A stretch of 64,000 bases of DNA from positions 1 through 64,000 of IMG/VR virus record IMGVR_UViG_3300044701_003213; one strand, written 5' to 3'. The position numbers were made by a program, and so were the translations under genes. Position 1 is the stretch's first letter. Each line of letters begins with the position of its first letter. Under the pieces are notes generated by a model. The model searched no databases. It was not told the origin of the DNA and was given only the letters and a program-made list of their open reading frames with translations. This stretch comes from a virus. Positions 5,043 through 34,346 of this stretch are shown one piece after another.

Positions 5043-5369
5043 GTGGGAAAGCATTACTTACTTAACTTGTACGGATGCTCGTTTGTCCTTTTGGATGACG
5101 AGCGTTGTCTTATTGACTTACTAGAAAACGCAGCAGTTGCTAGTGGTGCTACTGTGATTCAGACTATCTCAAAGAAGTTTGAACCACAAGGAGTTACTGT
5201 AGTCTGCTTGCTTTCGGAAAGTCATATCAGTATTCATACTTGGCCTGAGGAAGGTAAAGCAGCAGTTGATGTTTATACTTGTGGCGATTGTAACCCAAAG
5301 ATCGGGTGTGATATGATCATCCATCAACTTTATGCTCAAGATCATACGCTCAGTTATATTGAGCGGTAA
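5043..5369 (+). CDS. speD: S-adenosylmethionine decarboxylase proenzyme
   Basis: Makes decarboxylated SAM, the aminopropyl donor for spermidine. The self-processing site is visible as ESHISIHTWPE: Glu59-Ser60, where Ser60 would become the pyruvoyl cofactor. The catalytic Cys80 (DVYTCG) and His64 region are in place. At 108 aa it has the short class-1B bacterial length. GTG start at 5043. speD is a known cyanomyovirus auxiliary gene. No aminopropyltransferase gene is evident beside it. Confidence 0.93.
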   Translation: MGKHYLLNLYGCSFVLLDDERCLIDLLENAAVASGATVIQTISKKFEPQGVTVVCLLSESHISIHTWPEEGKAAVDVYTCGDCNPKIGCDMIIHQLYAQDHTLSYIER

Positions 5370-5741: not shown

Positions 5742-5771
5742 TTGTCTATATAGAGGCAATAGGTCTATAAT
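5742..5771 (+). promoter_or_regulatory. Sigma70-type promoter of the riboswitch transcript
   Basis: -35 TTGTCT (5742-5747), 18-base spacer, -10 TATAAT (5766-5771). Transcription would start near 5778, immediately before the riboswitch-like stem P1, the geometry expected for a cis-regulatory leader. Confidence 0.75.
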
Positions 5772-5778
5772 GACCTTA

Positions 5779-5826
5779 CGTTCATCCCTATGGGACGGAA
5801 GTAAGCCGACTCGGAACGGATCGTTC
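5779..5826 (+). ncRNA. Glutamine-riboswitch-like leader (glnA / Downstream-peptide class), 5' part
   Basis: CGTTC (5779-5783) can pair with GAACG (5814-5818) as P1. TCCC/GGGA (5785-5788 with 5792-5795) forms P2, followed by ACGGAAGTAAGCC, which matches the conserved core I recall for the glutamine-binding glnA and Downstream-peptide RNAs of cyanobacteria and their phages. A second CGTTC (5822-5826) competes for the same GAACG, forming an alternative hairpin. A four-codon frame (ATG GGA CGG AAG TAA, 5790-5804) overlaps P2. The canonical 3' end (CTGAAGGAACGC) is not here but at 5983-5994, so the architecture is unusual. Confidence 0.65.
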
Positions 5827-5830
5827 ATCT

Positions 5831-5986
5831 ATGGAAGCACTCCTTTTAACCTGCCTACAAGCAAATTTTATTATTGGAAGGGTACTTACTCATCCAAAGT
5901 TAGATGCCCAACAAAAAAATGATATCGTTTGGGAATTAAAACAAGTAACTAGAAAAGGTTGTTTCATAGACGCAAAAGCCGACTGA
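5831..5986 (+). CDS. 51-aa protein embedded between riboswitch-like halves
   Basis: ATG at 5831, TGA at 5984-5986. The protein starts MEALLLTCLQANFIIGR and continues with THPKLDAQQK and VWELKQVTRKGCF. The hydrophobic first 15 residues and the short length resemble small proteins I recall from cyanophages and marine cyanobacteria near glutamine-sensing leaders. There is no clear Shine-Dalgarno; the start lies 5 bases after the alternative hairpin's CGTTC, so access would depend on leader folding. Its stop overlaps the conserved CTGAAGG of the downstream riboswitch-like segment. Role unknown; a small regulator of nitrogen metabolism would fit the leader type, by inference. Confidence 0.65.
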   Translation: MEALLLTCLQANFIIGRVLTHPKLDAQQKNDIVWELKQVTRKGCFIDAKAD

Positions 5987-5994
5987 AGGAACGC
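5976..5994 (+). other. Riboswitch-like 3' core (GCCGACTGAAGGAACGC)
   Basis: AAGCCGACT (5976-5984) repeats 5803-5811 exactly, and is followed by GAAGGAACGC, the 3' strand expected for glutamine-riboswitch-class RNAs. Its GAACG (5989-5993) can pair with CGTTC at 5779-5783 or at 5822-5826. It lies about 31 bases before the YRGVEY gene, where it could control translation start. Confidence 0.55.
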
Positions 5995-6024
5995 TCTTTA
6001 ACCACAAAATTAAGGAGAACCCTA

Positions 6025-6189
6025 ATGTCTAAAGTTGTATATCGTGGTGTCGAATACGATACTACAGATCGTCCTAATCAAAATGTAAGACCACCAGCAC
6101 ACGTAGAAATCTATCGTGGGGTTTTATTTTATGTTGATGAAAATGGAAACAAACTCTCTATGGAAAAATCCAAGGGAGGTGCAAAATGA
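6025..6189 (+). CDS. YRG-repeat small protein (DUF4278-like, 54 aa)
   Basis: Contains YRGVEYD near the start and YRGVLFYVD at residue 30, the repeated YRGV-Y signature of a short cyanobacterial protein family (DUF4278-like, as I recall). TAAGGAG at 6011-6017 sets the start at 6025. It follows the riboswitch-like 3' core and overlaps the next small gene by ATGA. Function unknown; the family is typical of marine cyanobacteria, suggesting host origin. Confidence 0.75.
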   Translation: MSKVVYRGVEYDTTDRPNQNVRPPAHVEIYRGVLFYVDENGNKLSMEKSKGGAK

Positions 6190-6287
6190 ACACTTACTTC
6201 GTTCGTTATCTTAAGAAAAAAGCAAAGAAAGAAAATCTTCTTAAAGCTGCACAATTAAATATGGCGAAGCAACCACAGATTGCTTGA
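6186..6287 (+). CDS. 33-aa basic peptide coupled to the YRG protein
   Basis: ATGA overlap with the preceding stop. The peptide has a short hydrophobic/aromatic start (NTYFVRYL), a lysine-rich middle (KKKAKKEN) and LLKAAQLNMAKQ. It is followed directly by a strong terminator, so it closes the riboswitch-controlled transcript. Function unknown. Confidence 0.6.
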   Translation: MNTYFVRYLKKKAKKENLLKAAQLNMAKQPQIA

Positions 6288-6290
6288 TCA

Positions 6291-6320
6291 AAGAGGGGAC
6301 TTGACTCCCCTCTTTTTTTT
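6291..6320 (+). terminator. Terminator of the riboswitch operon
   Basis: Nine-bp stem AAGAGGGGA/TCCCCTCTT (6291-6299 with 6306-6314), loop CTTGAC, T run to 6320. Its loop and 3' arm also hold the -35 element of the next promoter. Confidence 0.9.
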
Positions 6321-7431: not shown

Positions 7432-8004
7432 ATGAGAGTATTTCAAAACATTAAACCAGATATAATCGTAGGATTAATTGTAAATTGCGGTGTAGTAGCA
7501 ATATTTCAAGGTAGATCAGAAGCTGGTCCCAGAGCTCTTGGTAATAGATCCTTGCTTTTTAATCCATTAATGTCTCGTGGTAGAGAGTATGTAAACAAGT
7601 TGAAAAAGAGAGAGCAGTGGAGACCTTTTGCTGGAGTAGTTTCTCTAGATGACGTACACGATTGGTTTGATATTGGTAGATTAGATAGTTCTCCTTTCAT
7701 GACTTATGCAGTCAATGTAAAAGAAAATACTGAATTTAAACTACACTCTATCACTCACAATGATGGAACTTGTAGGATTCAAACTATAACGGAAGAGCAG
7801 AATAAGCATTTGTATGCATTGCTTATGACCTTAAAGGATCAAGGTCTTCCTCCTATTCTAGGAAATACCTCTTTTAATCTAGCTGGAGAACCTCTTGTTG
7901 AAACATATGATGATGCAATAAATACATTGAAAAATTCAGAACTTGAGTTCTTGTATCTTCCTGAGACAATGGAATTAGTCTACATCGCAAACGAAACAAA
8001 ATGA
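7432..8004 (+). CDS. Carbamoyltransferase C-terminal-type domain protein, copy 1 (NodU/CmcH family)
   Basis: Matches the C-terminal (carbamoyl-transferring, YrdC-like) domain of NodU/CmcH O-carbamoyltransferases: FQGRSEAGPRALGNRS at about residues 25-40, KKREQWRPFAG, SPFMTYAV, DGTCRIQT and NTSFNLAGEP. It stands alone as a 190-aa protein, placed before the gene for the N-terminal domain, which it overlaps by ATGA. In known single-chain enzymes the order is N then C. Together the two chains should carbamoylate a hydroxyl using carbamoyl phosphate and ATP. Substrate unknown. First gene of a four-gene late operon. Confidence 0.85.
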   Translation: MRVFQNIKPDIIVGLIVNCGVVAIFQGRSEAGPRALGNRSLLFNPLMSRGREYVNKLKKREQWRPFAGVVSLDDVHDWFDIGRLDSSPFMTYAVNVKENTEFKLHSITHNDGTCRIQTITEEQNKHLYALLMTLKDQGLPPILGNTSFNLAGEPLVETYDDAINTLKNSELEFLYLPETMELVYIANETK

Positions 8005-9161
8005 AAATATTAGGAATTAACATTTCTCATCATTCTTCATCATGTCTTTTAGAAGATGGGAATATTCTTTACTTTTTAGAAGAGGAAAGAATCTCTAGGA
8101 TAAAAGAACACTGTTATCTTTGGAATGGTGAGACTGCATTTTTTATTAATAAATTAAAATCATACACAAACCATGTAGATTACATTATCTTTTCCTCTTT
8201 TGGTAGAGAAATTGGAGATGATTCTGGTAAGTATTCCAATCATGATAAAGATCCAGACAAATATTTGGTTGAAAAACTTTTAACACAAATCAAAGAGTCT
8301 GGTATTGGTGTTGGTGAAGTTGTGTTTAGTAAAAATGAACATCATTTATACCATGCATCAAATGCTTTTTATGGATCTGGATTTGATGATGCAGTTTGTT
8401 TGGTGATGGATGGTGGAGGCGCTTTGTATAATGACGAGGATAAATCTTTAGCGCGATTAACTGGCGAAGAAGATCCTTTGTTCCGAGAGATAGAATCATA
8501 TTATCAATTCTCATACGGACAAGAACCAAAAACTCTTCATAAACACTACACTTATGAAGATGATTTTGAGAAATCATTTGTTTATAAGCATAATGGTAAT
8601 GTATTTTCTAGTACCAGAAGTAATGGTGGATTATTTAATATTCTAGGGTCTGTTCTTGGTTTTAATTCTGGAGTGGATGCTGGTAAAGTTATGGGTTTAT
8701 CTTCTTATGCAAAGAAAGAAAAAGGAGATTCTGATAGGTGGTATGAAAACATTGATTGGTTCGTAGAGAAAGAGGGGGAGTGGATAACTTCTGAAAAAGT
8801 TAGAATTAAGGATTTTGATGATAACTGCAAGTTTAATAGGTTTAAGTTTGAAGAAGAGGATCTTAGACTAAAATCTAAATTAGCAAAGAAACTTCAAGAT
8901 GAAACTTTAAATCATACAAATCGATTAATTAAAAAAGCTTTCGAACTATCAGACTCTAAAAATATTGTTCTGTCTGGTGGTTATTCTTTGAATTGCTTAA
9001 ACAACTTCAAGTATCTTGATTCTTTACCATCGGATGCTAATATTTTTATTGATCCTATTTCTAATGATGCTGGTACTGCTATGGGAGCAGCAAAATATCT
9101 GTGGTATAAATTGAGCGGGTCTACAAATAAAAATCCCCTTAAAAATTTATTTTTAGGTTAA
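8001..9161 (+). CDS. Carbamoyltransferase N-terminal-type domain protein, copy 1 (NodU/CmcH family)
   Basis: Resembles the Kae1/ASKHA-like N-terminal domain of NodU/CmcH: MKILGINISHHSSSC start, FLEEERISR, the metal-binding HHLYHASNAFYGSGF, LVMDGGG, AGKVMGL and NDAGTAMGAA near the C-terminus. This domain forms carbamoyl-adenylate from carbamoyl phosphate and ATP. It ends (386 aa) without the C-terminal transfer domain, which is encoded by the gene just upstream. ATGA overlap suggests equal synthesis of the two subunits. Confidence 0.85.
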   Translation: MKILGINISHHSSSCLLEDGNILYFLEEERISRIKEHCYLWNGETAFFINKLKSYTNHVDYIIFSSFGREIGDDSGKYSNHDKDPDKYLVEKLLTQIKESGIGVGEVVFSKNEHHLYHASNAFYGSGFDDAVCLVMDGGGALYNDEDKSLARLTGEEDPLFREIESYYQFSYGQEPKTLHKHYTYEDDFEKSFVYKHNGNVFSSTRSNGGLFNILGSVLGFNSGVDAGKVMGLSSYAKKEKGDSDRWYENIDWFVEKEGEWITSEKVRIKDFDDNCKFNRFKFEEEDLRLKSKLAKKLQDETLNHTNRLIKKAFELSDSKNIVLSGGYSLNCLNNFKYLDSLPSDANIFIDPISNDAGTAMGAAKYLWYKLSGSTNKNPLKNLFLG

Positions 9162-9162
9162 T

Positions 9163-9726
9163 ATGAATTGTATTGAAGATGTTTCTTATTTTGATGTAAT
9201 TCAAAAGATCCTAGAGTCAAAGATAGTAGCAATATTTCAAGGAAAATCTGAGGGTGGTCCTAGAGCTTTGGGTAATAGGTCAATACTATTTGACCCAAGA
9301 GTGCCTAATGGGAAAGATATTGTTAATACTGTAAAGAAAAGAGAATCATTTAGACCTTTTGCTGGGTCTATTTTGTATGAACATTCTCACGATTGGTTTG
9401 ATATGTTGGGTTTAGATGAGTCTCCATTCATGACCTATGCTTTTCAATGCAGAGAAGATAAAAAGAAATTTATACCTTCCATTGTTCATATTGATGGTAC
9501 ATGCAGAATACAGACAGTTAAAAAGAAACAAAATGAAGTATATTATTCTTTAATTCATGAGTTTTATAATCAAACTGGCGTTCCCATATTATTAAATACT
9601 TCTTTCAATCTAGCTGGAGAAGCAATGGTTGAAACTCCCGAAGATGCTATTCATACCTTTAAAAATTCGGGTATTGATTTTTTGTATTTTCCGGAAATAA
9701 AATGCTTATTGGAGAAGAATAGATGA
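9163..9726 (+). CDS. Carbamoyltransferase C-terminal-type domain protein, copy 2
   Basis: Paralogue of the 7432 gene: FQGKSEGGPRALGNRS, KKRESFRPFAG, SPFMTYAF, DGTCRIQT and NTSFNLAGEA are all kept. It starts one base after the stop of copy 1's N-domain gene and overlaps its own N-domain partner by ATGA, so the C-then-N order is repeated. The second pair could have a different acceptor or form mixed complexes with the first; the sequence cannot decide. Confidence 0.85.
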   Translation: MNCIEDVSYFDVIQKILESKIVAIFQGKSEGGPRALGNRSILFDPRVPNGKDIVNTVKKRESFRPFAGSILYEHSHDWFDMLGLDESPFMTYAFQCREDKKKFIPSIVHIDGTCRIQTVKKKQNEVYYSLIHEFYNQTGVPILLNTSFNLAGEAMVETPEDAIHTFKNSGIDFLYFPEIKCLLEKNR

Positions 9727-10892
9727 AATGGACTTTAGGTGTAAGTGTTGCAAACCATGACGCATCAATATGCTTATTGAGAGATCATAAGATAGAACTT
9801 TTTTTGCAAGAAGAACGTTCTTCTAGGTATAAGCATGATTCGGATTTACCACTAAAGAGTCTCGATGAAGTAAAAAAAATTACTCATACTATTGATGATT
9901 TGGTCATAGTAAATTGTCCCAGCGAAGAAAGATTTCTTATTAGAAGTTCTTTAGTGAAGATGGGAGTTAAAGTTTTAAATTTAACTGATTGGGGAGATAA
10001 GTTTCATCACTTATATCATGCTGCTTCTGGATTTTATCATTCTGGTTTTAAGAAAGCTTTCTGTTTGGTTATAGATGGGTGGGGAGACGCTACTAATATT
10101 TCCCTTGACGATGAATATGGAAAAATAGAAGGATATGAAACTACTTCTATTTTTACAGCAGAAAGCACGGGTCAATTTAATTTGTTATATAAACATTTGC
10201 ATTATGATCCATCAAAAACTGATGTTCTAGCTACAACTTCAGTCGATCCAGAAAAGTTTTTGCGTAAAGATAGTCGATATGATGTCAGTCATCGAATAGA
10301 TATTGGTGTTTTATATGGAACAGTAGCATCACATGTTGGTTTTGATCCAGTTGAAGGTGGTGGAAAGTTGATGGGAATGGCTCCTTATGGATTTGATGAT
10401 GATAGCATTCCTTCATTTTTTATCAATGAAAAGTTGGATACTAATATGAATCTTTTTACAAATAGTAGAATTCTTGATATTTTTGCACACCCACATTTGA
10501 AGGAATATAAAAATAATTTTCAAAAAAAGGCTAACCTAGCATACGCAGCACAGAAAGCATTAGAAAAAAAGTTTGAGCAGAGAGTCAATTTTATTCTTAA
10601 TAATTTTAGGACAGAAACTCGTGACTATTTTGATGATGATAAAATAAGAATTGTTATTAGTGGAGGTTGTGCTTTAAATGTTGTTGGTAATTCTTATCTG
10701 AAAGAAAAGTTCCCAACAGTAGAGTTTTACATTGACCCTATTCCTAATGATGCTGGGCAATCAATAGGAGCAGCTAAAATAGCTTACTATACTACTAGTG
10801 AATGTGATATAATAGAGAGGACCGAATCATTGTATACTGGTCCATCTTATAGTCCAGATTATATTAGAAAAGCAATTTCAAAAGAGATTTAA
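9723..10892 (+). CDS. Carbamoyltransferase N-terminal-type domain protein, copy 2
   Basis: Second NodU/CmcH N-terminal domain protein (389 aa): LGVSVANHDASICLL start, FLQEERSSR, HHLYHAASGFYHSGF, LVIDGWGD, GGGKLMGMAPYG and NDAGQSIGAA. It is closer to textbook NodU/CmcH (DHHLAHAASAFY-type motif, MAPYG) than copy 1, which lacks the APYG form. Ends the carbamoyltransferase operon; a new late promoter follows at 10901. Confidence 0.85.
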   Translation: MKWTLGVSVANHDASICLLRDHKIELFLQEERSSRYKHDSDLPLKSLDEVKKITHTIDDLVIVNCPSEERFLIRSSLVKMGVKVLNLTDWGDKFHHLYHAASGFYHSGFKKAFCLVIDGWGDATNISLDDEYGKIEGYETTSIFTAESTGQFNLLYKHLHYDPSKTDVLATTSVDPEKFLRKDSRYDVSHRIDIGVLYGTVASHVGFDPVEGGGKLMGMAPYGFDDDSIPSFFINEKLDTNMNLFTNSRILDIFAHPHLKEYKNNFQKKANLAYAAQKALEKKFEQRVNFILNNFRTETRDYFDDDKIRIVISGGCALNVVGNSYLKEKFPTVEFYIDPIPNDAGQSIGAAKIAYYTTSECDIIERTESLYTGPSYSPDYIRKAISKEI

Positions 10893-33166: not shown

Positions 33167-33238
33167 GCTTCTGTCGCCTATTGGTTAAGGCCCACTGCTT
33201 ATAACGGTGTGAACGGGGTTCAATTCCCTGCAGAAGCA
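33167..33238 (+). tRNA. trnI: tRNA-Ile (anticodon TAT)
   Basis: 7-bp acceptor GCTTCTG/CAGAAGC, anticodon stem CACTG/CGGTG with loop CTTATAA giving TAT, and T arm GGGGTTCAATTCCC. It reads ATA, a codon frequent in this AT-rich phage and rarer in hosts. CCA is not encoded. Confidence 0.85.
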
Positions 33239-33242
33239 CCTT

Positions 33243-33315
33243 GCTGGTTTAGCTATCTGGTGAAAGCACCCGACTCATAATCGGATATAGGCGAGTTCGA
33301 TCCTCGCAACCAGCA
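33243..33315 (+). tRNA. tRNA with CAT anticodon (Met, or Ile2)
   Basis: 7-bp acceptor GCTGGTT/AACCAGC, anticodon loop CTCATAA with anticodon CAT, T arm GCGAGTTCGATCCTCGC. One mismatch at the top of the anticodon stem. Elongator Met is most likely, but a lysidine-modified Ile2 tRNA cannot be excluded from sequence reading. Confidence 0.8.
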
Positions 33316-33359
33316 CTAGACAATCAAAGCAACTCATGCTATGATTGTCTCACCACCAC

Positions 33360-33443
33360 GGGGCGGTGGCGGAAGTGGTAGACGCACCGGACTTAAAATC
33401 CGTTGGGAGTAATCCCGTGGGGGTTCAAGTCCCCCTCGCCCTA
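33360..33443 (+). tRNA. trnL: tRNA-Leu (anticodon TAA)
   Basis: Class II tRNA, 84 nt with long variable arm (TTGGGAGTAATCCC). Acceptor GGGGCGG/TCGCCCT with end wobbles, anticodon loop CTTAAAA giving TAA, T arm GGGGGTTCAAGTCCCCC. Reads TTA, common in this AT-rich genome. Confidence 0.85.
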
Positions 33444-33458
33444 TTTCTGGAGATAAAA

Positions 33459-33959
33459 ATGATTACAATTTATGATAATTTTATTACTCCAGAAAAATGT
33501 GTAGAATTTTACAAATACTGCACAAAACTCTCTTATTCTTATGGCGAAACCGATCATGAAGAATCTCCACCAGTTGGACTAGCGTGTGACCTAAATTCTA
33601 AAAATGAATGGGTTGAATTTTTTGTTGAACAAGTTAAAAATAAATTCTCGCTACACAATGTAGTTGATAGATGTTATATAAATTTGTTCTTACCTGGAGA
33701 AAGACCTTATTATCATACTGATGGTGAGGAAGATGAGATTACTTTTCTTTATTATGCAAACATTGAATGGGATTTAGACGAAGGAGGAGAAACAAAATTT
33801 GTTGTTGGTGATAAAAATGAAGAAATTAGGGGTGTTTTGCCTATTCCCAACCGAGCAATTATTTTCCCCGCTAATATGATACATTCTGCTTCTTCATTTA
33901 GAACTAAAGCAAGGTATAGTTTAGCGATTAAATATTGTTCTCTAGATATATCCCTTTAG
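33459..33959 (+). CDS. 2OG-Fe(II) oxygenase (166 aa)
   Basis: Compact beta-helix oxygenase: YYHTDGE with His86-x-Asp88, MIHS with His142, and RYSLAIKY with Arg152 for 2-oxoglutarate. CTGGAGA precedes ATG 33459; upstream in-frame codons lie inside tRNA-Leu and are not coding. Resembles short prolyl-4-hydroxylase-like phage enzymes. Substrate unknown. Confidence 0.85.
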   Translation: MITIYDNFITPEKCVEFYKYCTKLSYSYGETDHEESPPVGLACDLNSKNEWVEFFVEQVKNKFSLHNVVDRCYINLFLPGERPYYHTDGEEDEITFLYYANIEWDLDEGGETKFVVGDKNEEIRGVLPIPNRAIIFPANMIHSASSFRTKARYSLAIKYCSLDISL

Positions 33960-33966
33960 AAAAACC

Positions 33967-33974
33967 TCTAAATA
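33967..33974 (+). promoter_or_regulatory. Late promoter-like element TCTAAATA
   Basis: Lies 24 bases before the 33999 start, directly after the oxygenase stop. Confidence 0.4.
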
Positions 33975-33998
33975 TAACAAACTAATAGGAACCTTCCT

Positions 33999-34268
33999 AT
34001 GAAGTATCGAATTGATTCTAGATATGTTTGGTATAATAAGGGAACTCAAATAGTTCTAATGTATTTTATAAATAGCATACCATTTACTTTTGATGAATTA
34101 CCAGATTCATACATGTATGATCTAGAAATAATTCGATTAGCTGATAATGAAAGAAGATTTGATCCAGAAGATCTATATAAAACATCTTTCTACTTAATTG
34201 ATGAATTATGTCATCCACTTATGTTTGAATTGGATCTTGAAAATCCAGAAATGTTACCAAGTGATTAA
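33999..34268 (+). CDS. Unknown small phage protein (89 aa)
   Basis: Mixed alpha/beta protein beginning KYRIDSRYVWYNKGTQIVLMYF and ending HPLMFELDLENPEMLPSD. Preceded by a weak purine stretch and a late-type element. No recognised family. The stop is 6 bases before tRNA-Thr. Confidence 0.65.
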   Translation: MKYRIDSRYVWYNKGTQIVLMYFINSIPFTFDELPDSYMYDLEIIRLADNERRFDPEDLYKTSFYLIDELCHPLMFELDLENPEMLPSD

Positions 34269-34274
34269 TATTTT

Positions 34275-34346
34275 GCCTCTGTAGCTCAGTGGTAGAGCAA
34301 CGGTTTTGTAAACCGTTGGTCGCAGGTTCAAATCCTGTCGGGGGCT
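34275..34346 (+). tRNA. trnT: tRNA-Thr (anticodon TGT)
   Basis: Acceptor GCCTCTG/CGGGGGC (two G-U pairs), anticodon stem ACGGT/ACCGT with loop TTTGTAA giving TGT, T arm GCAGGTTCAAATCCTGT. Reads ACA. Followed at once by a perfect hairpin. Confidence 0.88.

Follow-up and report, generated by a model that had tools for sequence, protein, structure and literature searches.

A probable strand-swapped double glutamine-I element with a small gene in its inner loop, in the leader of a cyanophage operon

Positions 5779-5994 of the window, i.e., of the whole stretch of 64,000 nucleotides analysed here, very probably form a strand-swapped, back-to-back double element of the glutamine-I (glnA) riboswitch type. 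The pairing scheme is shown by comparison with relatives and comprises a predicted outer P1 (first CGTTC with second GAACG), a predicted inner P1 (first GAACG with second CGTTC) and a P3 helix, AGCCGACN of half 1 with NGCCGACU of half 2, which would be common to both units. Since this one long-range P3 joins the units back to back, the inner unit is circularly permuted. The same comparison places a 51-codon gene in the inner P2 loop, with its ATG in the 5' arm and a DAKAD-stop end encoded by conserved bases of the aptamer.

The window is part of a 65.5-kb virus record, and its virus is, as judged from relatives, a T4-like cyanophage. The record holds an S-adenosylmethionine decarboxylase gene at 5043-5369 and, at 993-2054, a translation read by eye that we take to be a photosystem II D2-like protein. 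This region makes up the leader of a short operon of the phage (Table 1), and transcription would be expected to start at about 5778, directly 5' of the first P1 strand. The final ORF of the unit, between the DUF4278 gene and the terminator, is lysine-rich; by eye, the DUF4278 protein of S-CREM1 seems to carry a tail of this kind as a fusion. Elsewhere in the window, four tRNA genes lie at 33167-34346, and the adjacent large ORFs 8001-9161 and 9723-10892 may encode NodU/CmcH-type carbamoyltransferases.

Table 1. Features of the leader and its operon in window positions; aptamer position numbering follows the 5DDP construct.
Feature	Position	Strand	Remarks
Sigma-70-type promoter-like site TTGTCT-18-TATAAT	5742-5771	+	10/12 consensus match; match to consensus only
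Outer P1 5' strand, first CGTTC	5779-5783	+	partner 5989-5993; C5779 = glutamine pocket position 1
Outer P2 hairpin TCCC-TAT-GGGA (slot 1)	5785-5795	+	TCCC 5785-5788, GGGA 5792-5795
Junction CGGAAGTA	5796-5803	+	G22 = 5797, linchpin G23 = 5798, loop-E strand AAGTA
P3 5' strand AGCCGACT	5804-5811	+	covariation with 5977-5984
Inner P1 strand, first GAACG	5814-5818	+	adjoining G5819 = inner position 60
Inner P1 strand, second CGTTC	5822-5826	+	3' of its own partner strand, hence circularly permuted unit
Inner P2 5' arm TCTATG	5828-5833	+	arm covariation; includes ATG of nested gene
Nested gene (slot 2), 51 aa, phrog_504	5831-5986	+	start in P2 arm; stop TGA at P3/loop-E border
Inner P2 3' arm CATAGA	5965-5970	+	inside codons for F-I-D of nested protein
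Inner junction CGCAAA	5971-5976	+	G22' = 5972; linchpin C23' = 5973, partner G5819
P3 3' strand AGCCGACT	5977-5984	+	covariation with 5804-5811
Loop-E second strand GAAG	5985-5988	+	
Outer P1 3' strand, second GAACG	5989-5993	+	partner 5779-5783
Linchpin C60	5994	+	pairs with G5798; also opens hairpin hiding the downstream Shine-Dalgarno sequence
Candidate expression platform, hairpin CTCTTTAA/TTAAGGAG	5994-6017	+	covers Shine-Dalgarno AAGGAG (6012-6017); -4.9 kcal/mol
Downstream gene, 54 aa, DUF4278-like	6025-6189	+	weak Pfam match; phrog_5049
33-aa ORF, final gene of unit	6186-6287	+	ORF call
Intrinsic-terminator-like hairpin, then T run	6290-6315	+	

An initial annotation of this DNA had named most of these pieces, and all of them were recovered with an offset of at most one base: the promoter-like site, a glutamine-I-like RNA of a cyanophage (the outer unit keeps pocket bases and linchpin), the duplicated strands CGTTC, GAACG and AAGCCGACT, a real small gene between the halves and a second one downstream. 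AAGCCGACT lies at 5803-5811 and again at 5976-5984, where it continues into GAAGGAACGC up to 5994. The interpretation has to be revised, however. The leader had been read as split or tandem, but it is neither a plain tandem nor one aptamer cut in two, as the halves exchange strands. The GAACG-GAT-CGTTC hairpin does pair, not as the proposed alternative structure but as inner P1 of the permuted unit; likewise, the repeat described as an exact copy is present, and its role is that of the opposite strand of the shared P3. A free competition of two CGTTC for two GAACG strands is not favoured: covariation of the linchpin and of P3 ties the strands to a single, crossed pairing, although they may change partners during switching.

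The Rfam family models see the element in part or miss it altogether. With glnA (RF01739), half 1 (5777-5822) reaches 34.0 bits against a gathering threshold of 35 (E = 3.7e-7 for the 65.5-kb record), and the second half has no Rfam match of its own. The suggested assignment to Downstream-peptide (glutamine-II, RF01704) fails, with 16.8 bits for the first half against a gathering threshold of 33. RF01739 scores 35.6 and 35.1 bits in two relatives (L002 and L005) and gives no match in the three loci scanned that carry a gene in slot 1. A single relative, L004, gets 33.1 bits with RF01704, via the core common to both glutamine classes. Since Rfam misses the element partly or wholly, searches with short-loop motifs will overlook others. 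The composite pattern itself occurs once in the window and in none of 1000 shuffles of it.

Two pattern scans of viral contigs and annotated phages, both requiring the two halves, provided the loci for comparison. Outer linchpin bases, P3 end pair and P2 arms were left free, except that the second pattern fixed the final two bases of the 3' arm and set inner base 23 to C. Such elements are common: the arrangement is present in at least 136 different loci of viruses, and 185 phage records match the gene-free element at least in part. Among the 136 loci listed, the inner core falls into two length classes, 40-51 nt for a plain hairpin (e.g., S-PM2 and S-CREM1) and 167-271 nt where a gene is present; no intermediate lengths occur. 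The gene-free element of S-PM2 measures 96 nt as a whole (1564-1659). The hosts are ocean and freshwater cyanobacteria. A search for the composite in 386 cyanobacterial genomes returned one match, L323, which has no second half and was rated as chance; the composite therefore looks phage-specific. A scan of genome contigs with CGGAACGN{2,6}CGTTCAT was discarded as too loose, with chance matches across phyla.

The known structure of the glutamine-I aptamer has the ligand in contact with the C1:G59 pair and the G22/G2:C58 triple; its G23-C60 pair forms only in the bound state (PMC6698751, PMC11477058). Each unit of the phage element retains the contact bases C1:G59, G2:C58 and G22 as well as the 23:60 linchpin. 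A three-way junction of P1, P2 and P3 is supported, with P1 and P3 formed between the halves. The P1 strands are invariant, and their partners are therefore assigned from the linchpin, from P3 and from folding energy. Base 23 of half 1 and base 60 of half 2, the outer linchpin, are complementary in 136 of 136 listed loci (105 C-G, 31 G-C), and the inner cross-half linchpin is satisfied in all but two (C-A). A follow-up scan that selected only for C at inner position 60 yielded 20 loci, including one known before (L016), and inner base 23 is G in all of them. The inner and outer linchpin pairs occur in all four combinations. On supported branches, the independent linchpin contrasts number only 4, all in agreement; many of the 136 loci are related, and the DUF4278 tree is built on a short gene for which recombination is likely.

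The P3 helix gives a second line of evidence. Its end pair is complementary in 132 of 132 listed loci (UA 101, AU 22, GC 8, UG 1), compared to a mean of 84 and a maximum of 100 in shuffles, and 10 of 10 independent contrasts on supported branches of the downstream-gene tree agree (p = 0.002). Rare forms are coupled, i.e., AGTCG occurs with CGACT, AGACAACT with AGTTGACT, and AGCCAACT with AGTTGACT or AGCTGACT; L089 has AGTCA/TGACT. The helix retains two C.A/A.C mismatches, the first of which is A.C in AGACGACG/CGCCGCCU. In S-SRM01 (1562-1729), the aptamer sequence GACTGA is changed to GACGGA and the P3 end pair turns simultaneously from A-U to C-G; the nested protein of this phage runs through the P1 strand because the change removes the usual stop.

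The nested ORF is, to judge from its substitution pattern and its homologues, a protein-coding gene under purifying selection: pN/pS is 0.26-0.32, and pN is below pS in 99-100% of pairs. Of 92 long loops, 91 contain an ORF whose ATG lies 9-12 nt beyond the initial C of the second CGTTC, and 88 of these ORFs end at the aptamer's own TGA or TAA. Searches with the proteins only returned nested genes throughout, in 80 of the best 80 homologues for slot 2 (the contig end cuts two of these loci) and in 80 of the best 80 for slot 1 (seven with a variant P3). Slot-2 proteins, members of phrog_504, have mostly 49-66 aa and two conserved cysteines, and most slot-1 proteins fall into phrog_6471. Both are families of unknown function. 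A structure prediction gave a two-helix model (pLDDT 83), which is too small for a useful fold search.

The arms enclosing these coding loops pair with each other. Over 62 different slot-2 arm combinations, position 3 is CG, UA or UG, position 4 is CG, AU, UG or UA with one exception, and position 5 is AU, UA, UG or CG with two exceptions. In 30 distinct 6-nt arm pairs, a fraction of 0.917 of the positions is paired, compared to 0.719 in 10,000 shuffles (maximum 0.828). The slot-1 P2 arms covary more weakly. The P2 stem extends into the coding sequence, where own pairs beat 10,000 partner-swapped shuffles, and the residue before DAKAD tracks the opposite arm: TCTATG goes with I or V, TCCCAT with W, TCCTTA with K, E or R, and TCCTCA with E. 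The DAKAD tails, as well as the I/W/K/E/R residue before them, are thus explained as consequences of RNA structure.

Either P2 loop can be a short hairpin or a small gene, as judged from the loci compared. The outer/inner states of the 136 listed loci are hairpin/gene (70), hairpin/hairpin (34), gene/gene (20) and gene/hairpin (10), with the outer state unknown in 2, and a gene occupies the outer loop (slot 1) in about 30 of them. Slot-1 genes often stop on the aptamer's own TAA in GCAAGTAAG, with the tail GRK in 17 of 26. One locus, L152, has a phrog_6471 protein in slot 2 with a slot-2 tail, whereas L024 and L112 have phrog_6471 in slot 1. A protein of the slot-1 family in slot 2 means that cargo can change slot. 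A further locus, L089, is a partial triple with a core of 271 nt, consisting of half 1, a second half 1 with a slot-1-type gene, and half 2.

What the element does with glutamine is the more tentative part. In cyanobacteria, riboswitches of both glutamine classes (I and II) activate gene expression; they precede DUF4278 genes, which are similar to the N-terminal part of IF17, an inhibitor of glutamine synthetase (PMC6316151). The window RNA folds like the gene-free elements, with the Shine-Dalgarno sequence of the DUF4278 gene in the hairpin CTCTTTAA/TTAAGGAG. This hairpin has -4.9 kcal/mol with C60 and -3.1 without it, a loss of 1.8 kcal/mol. C5994 is common to linchpin and hairpin, which fits an ON switch for the DUF4278 gene. 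In the proposed sequence of events, RNA polymerase would start at the first CGTTC; at high glutamine the composite would close, perhaps with two glutamines bound together, and would take C60 from the hairpin, turning the DUF4278 gene ON. The closed composite would at the same time keep the nested ATG within the inner P2 stem, and initiation at this ATG should therefore be lowered, leaving the nested gene OFF. Conversely, a ribosome on the nested gene would open inner P2 and P3, so that the RNA should either have its nested gene translated or bind its ligand, but not both. Under this scheme, the two small proteins would be produced at opposite nitrogen states of the host. When the composite was enforced in folding, the Shine-Dalgarno sequence was not freed by that alone. 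Furthermore, the hairpin is seen in platforms of the CTCTTT class and not clearly in the GG class of other phages; the ON mechanism may therefore not be general. We hold the direction given here, with the DUF4278 gene ON and the nested gene OFF in the glutamine-bound state, at a little under an even chance. The complete reading, i.e., a riboswitch with protein genes in its own ligand-binding domain, a double aptamer, interchangeable P2 slots, mutual exclusion and opposite responses of nested and downstream gene, seems to us an even bet.

The same architecture could follow another logic, in which glutamine turns the nested gene ON or the ligand is not glutamine. Loop E (AAGUA plus GAAG) exists in the outer unit only, one strand per half, and the inner unit lacks both; without these bases, the inner unit may bind glutamine weakly or not at all, and its pocket leaves room for such a logic. 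Riboswitch variants with altered ligands are known as a class. Against this, the outer unit has the same pocket bases and the same linchpin as the glutamine-I aptamer of known structure, the gene that follows is of the DUF4278-like type linked to glutamine riboswitches, and the ATG lies within the P2 stem in both slots, which argues for OFF when closed. We regard this other logic as rather unlikely, though it is to be taken seriously.

Two independent tandem glutamine-I aptamers, each with its P1 in cis and the second interrupted by the gene, would account for the Rfam alignment of half 1 as a complete aptamer (34.0 bits), and the identical P1 strands make cis pairing possible. Moreover, tandem glutamine doublets were described by Weinberg 2010 (PMC2864571), and a tandem riboswitch review of 2022 (PMC9481103) counts 157 doublets and 4 triplets of glutamine-I. 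The linchpins do not fit such an arrangement: within the halves they fail in about 30 of the 136 listed loci, mostly as G-G or C-C, and they are mismatched in all 6 follow-up loci that combine an outer C-G with an inner G-C. Half 1 has no GAAG and half 2 no AAGUA, and P3 covaries between the halves. Among 33 gene-free elements, the swapped topology has 76 doubly changed cells and a covariation of 0.256, compared to 52 and 0.206 for the tandem; RNAalifold gives the swapped topology unprompted. Folding energy is lower for the swapped than for the cis topology in 33 of 33 (mean 3.6 kcal/mol), and the minimum of unconstrained folding pairs the first CGTTC with the second GAACG in 32 of 33. A tandem of two complete, self-contained cis aptamers was rejected, as the cis linchpins fail, loop E is divided and P3 is shared; the tandem explanation is thus very improbable.

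It is just as improbable that the repeats on either side are relics at the DNA level, or recombination sites through which small gene cassettes are exchanged, and that the fold of the RNA round the gene has lost its importance: slot states change often on the DUF4278 tree (at least 33 and at least 23 times) and one gene family occupies both slots (L152 versus L024), but the arms flanking the gene covary by compensatory change, the stem runs into coding sequence with own pairs above 10,000 shuffles, and the residue before DAKAD tracks the opposite arm. Recombination exchange may well be true alongside the RNA explanation, without replacing it.

The strand-swapped double element shares with glutamine-I (RF01739; 5DDO/5DDP) the P1 strands CGUUC/GAACG, P2, CGGAAGUA, GAAG, G22 and the 23:60 pair, and both have a DUF4278 gene downstream. 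It differs in that two units share strands and one P3, that the second unit has a circularly permuted strand order and no loop E, and that the P2 loop holds a gene; its score here lies just below the gathering threshold. Glutamine-II (RF01704; 6QN3) has the same CGUUCA...GAACGG core with a near-identical pocket, and its 23:60 pair is C:G as in many phage elements, but it has a pseudoknot, its own P2 and no third helix. The reported tandem doublets resemble the phage element in that two units of glutamine-I type follow each other upstream of a gene; in the accessible parts of the sources they are described as separate aptamers with pseudo-cooperativity and steeper switching. Those parts of PMC2864571 and PMC9481103 make no mention of strand exchange, a shared P3, circular permutation or genes in aptamers. 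Some of these doublets are probably the gene-free form of the phage element. Phage glnA elements as such are already known (PMC9964418), and the annotation of S-CREM1 covers the gene-free form as a single riboswitch feature. Natural circular permutations, i.e., the same fold with rotated strand order, are known for hammerhead, twister, 5S rRNA and group II introns, and the list in PMC10085705 includes no riboswitch aptamer.

Group I and group II introns, which are mobile and splice themselves, carry endonuclease or maturase ORFs in peripheral loops. They resemble the phage element in being structured RNAs with a protein gene in one loop, whose coding sequence extends into structural bases. The phage element, in contrast, is an mRNA leader of ligand-binding type, and its guests are small two-cysteine proteins. 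To our knowledge, no riboswitch aptamer is known with a protein-coding gene inside, nor one in which natural circular permutation goes together with strand exchange between two units. The literature searched, which was covered in part, yielded no description of a gene inside a riboswitch aptamer, none of a strand-swapped, naturally permuted aptamer, and no paper on DUF4278 in combination with phage. The element raises two testable questions, namely, whether the same bases of an RNA can serve both as message and as sensor, and whether cyanophages time small proteins by host glutamine.

Further RNA structures accompany the composite in some loci. An insert, CGGATCACTCGAAAGAGTTAAAGG or similar, lies directly 3' of half 2 and before the DUF4278 gene in five loci (L037, L052, L060, L158, L387); it is a hairpin of unknown kind, and in L037, L060 and L387 it matches no Rfam family. 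manA RNAs with 184-188 bits are found near the composite in L004 (1969-2154) and L007 (1019-1204), and in P-SSM4 a manA RNA and the composite are separated by a few hundred bases only.
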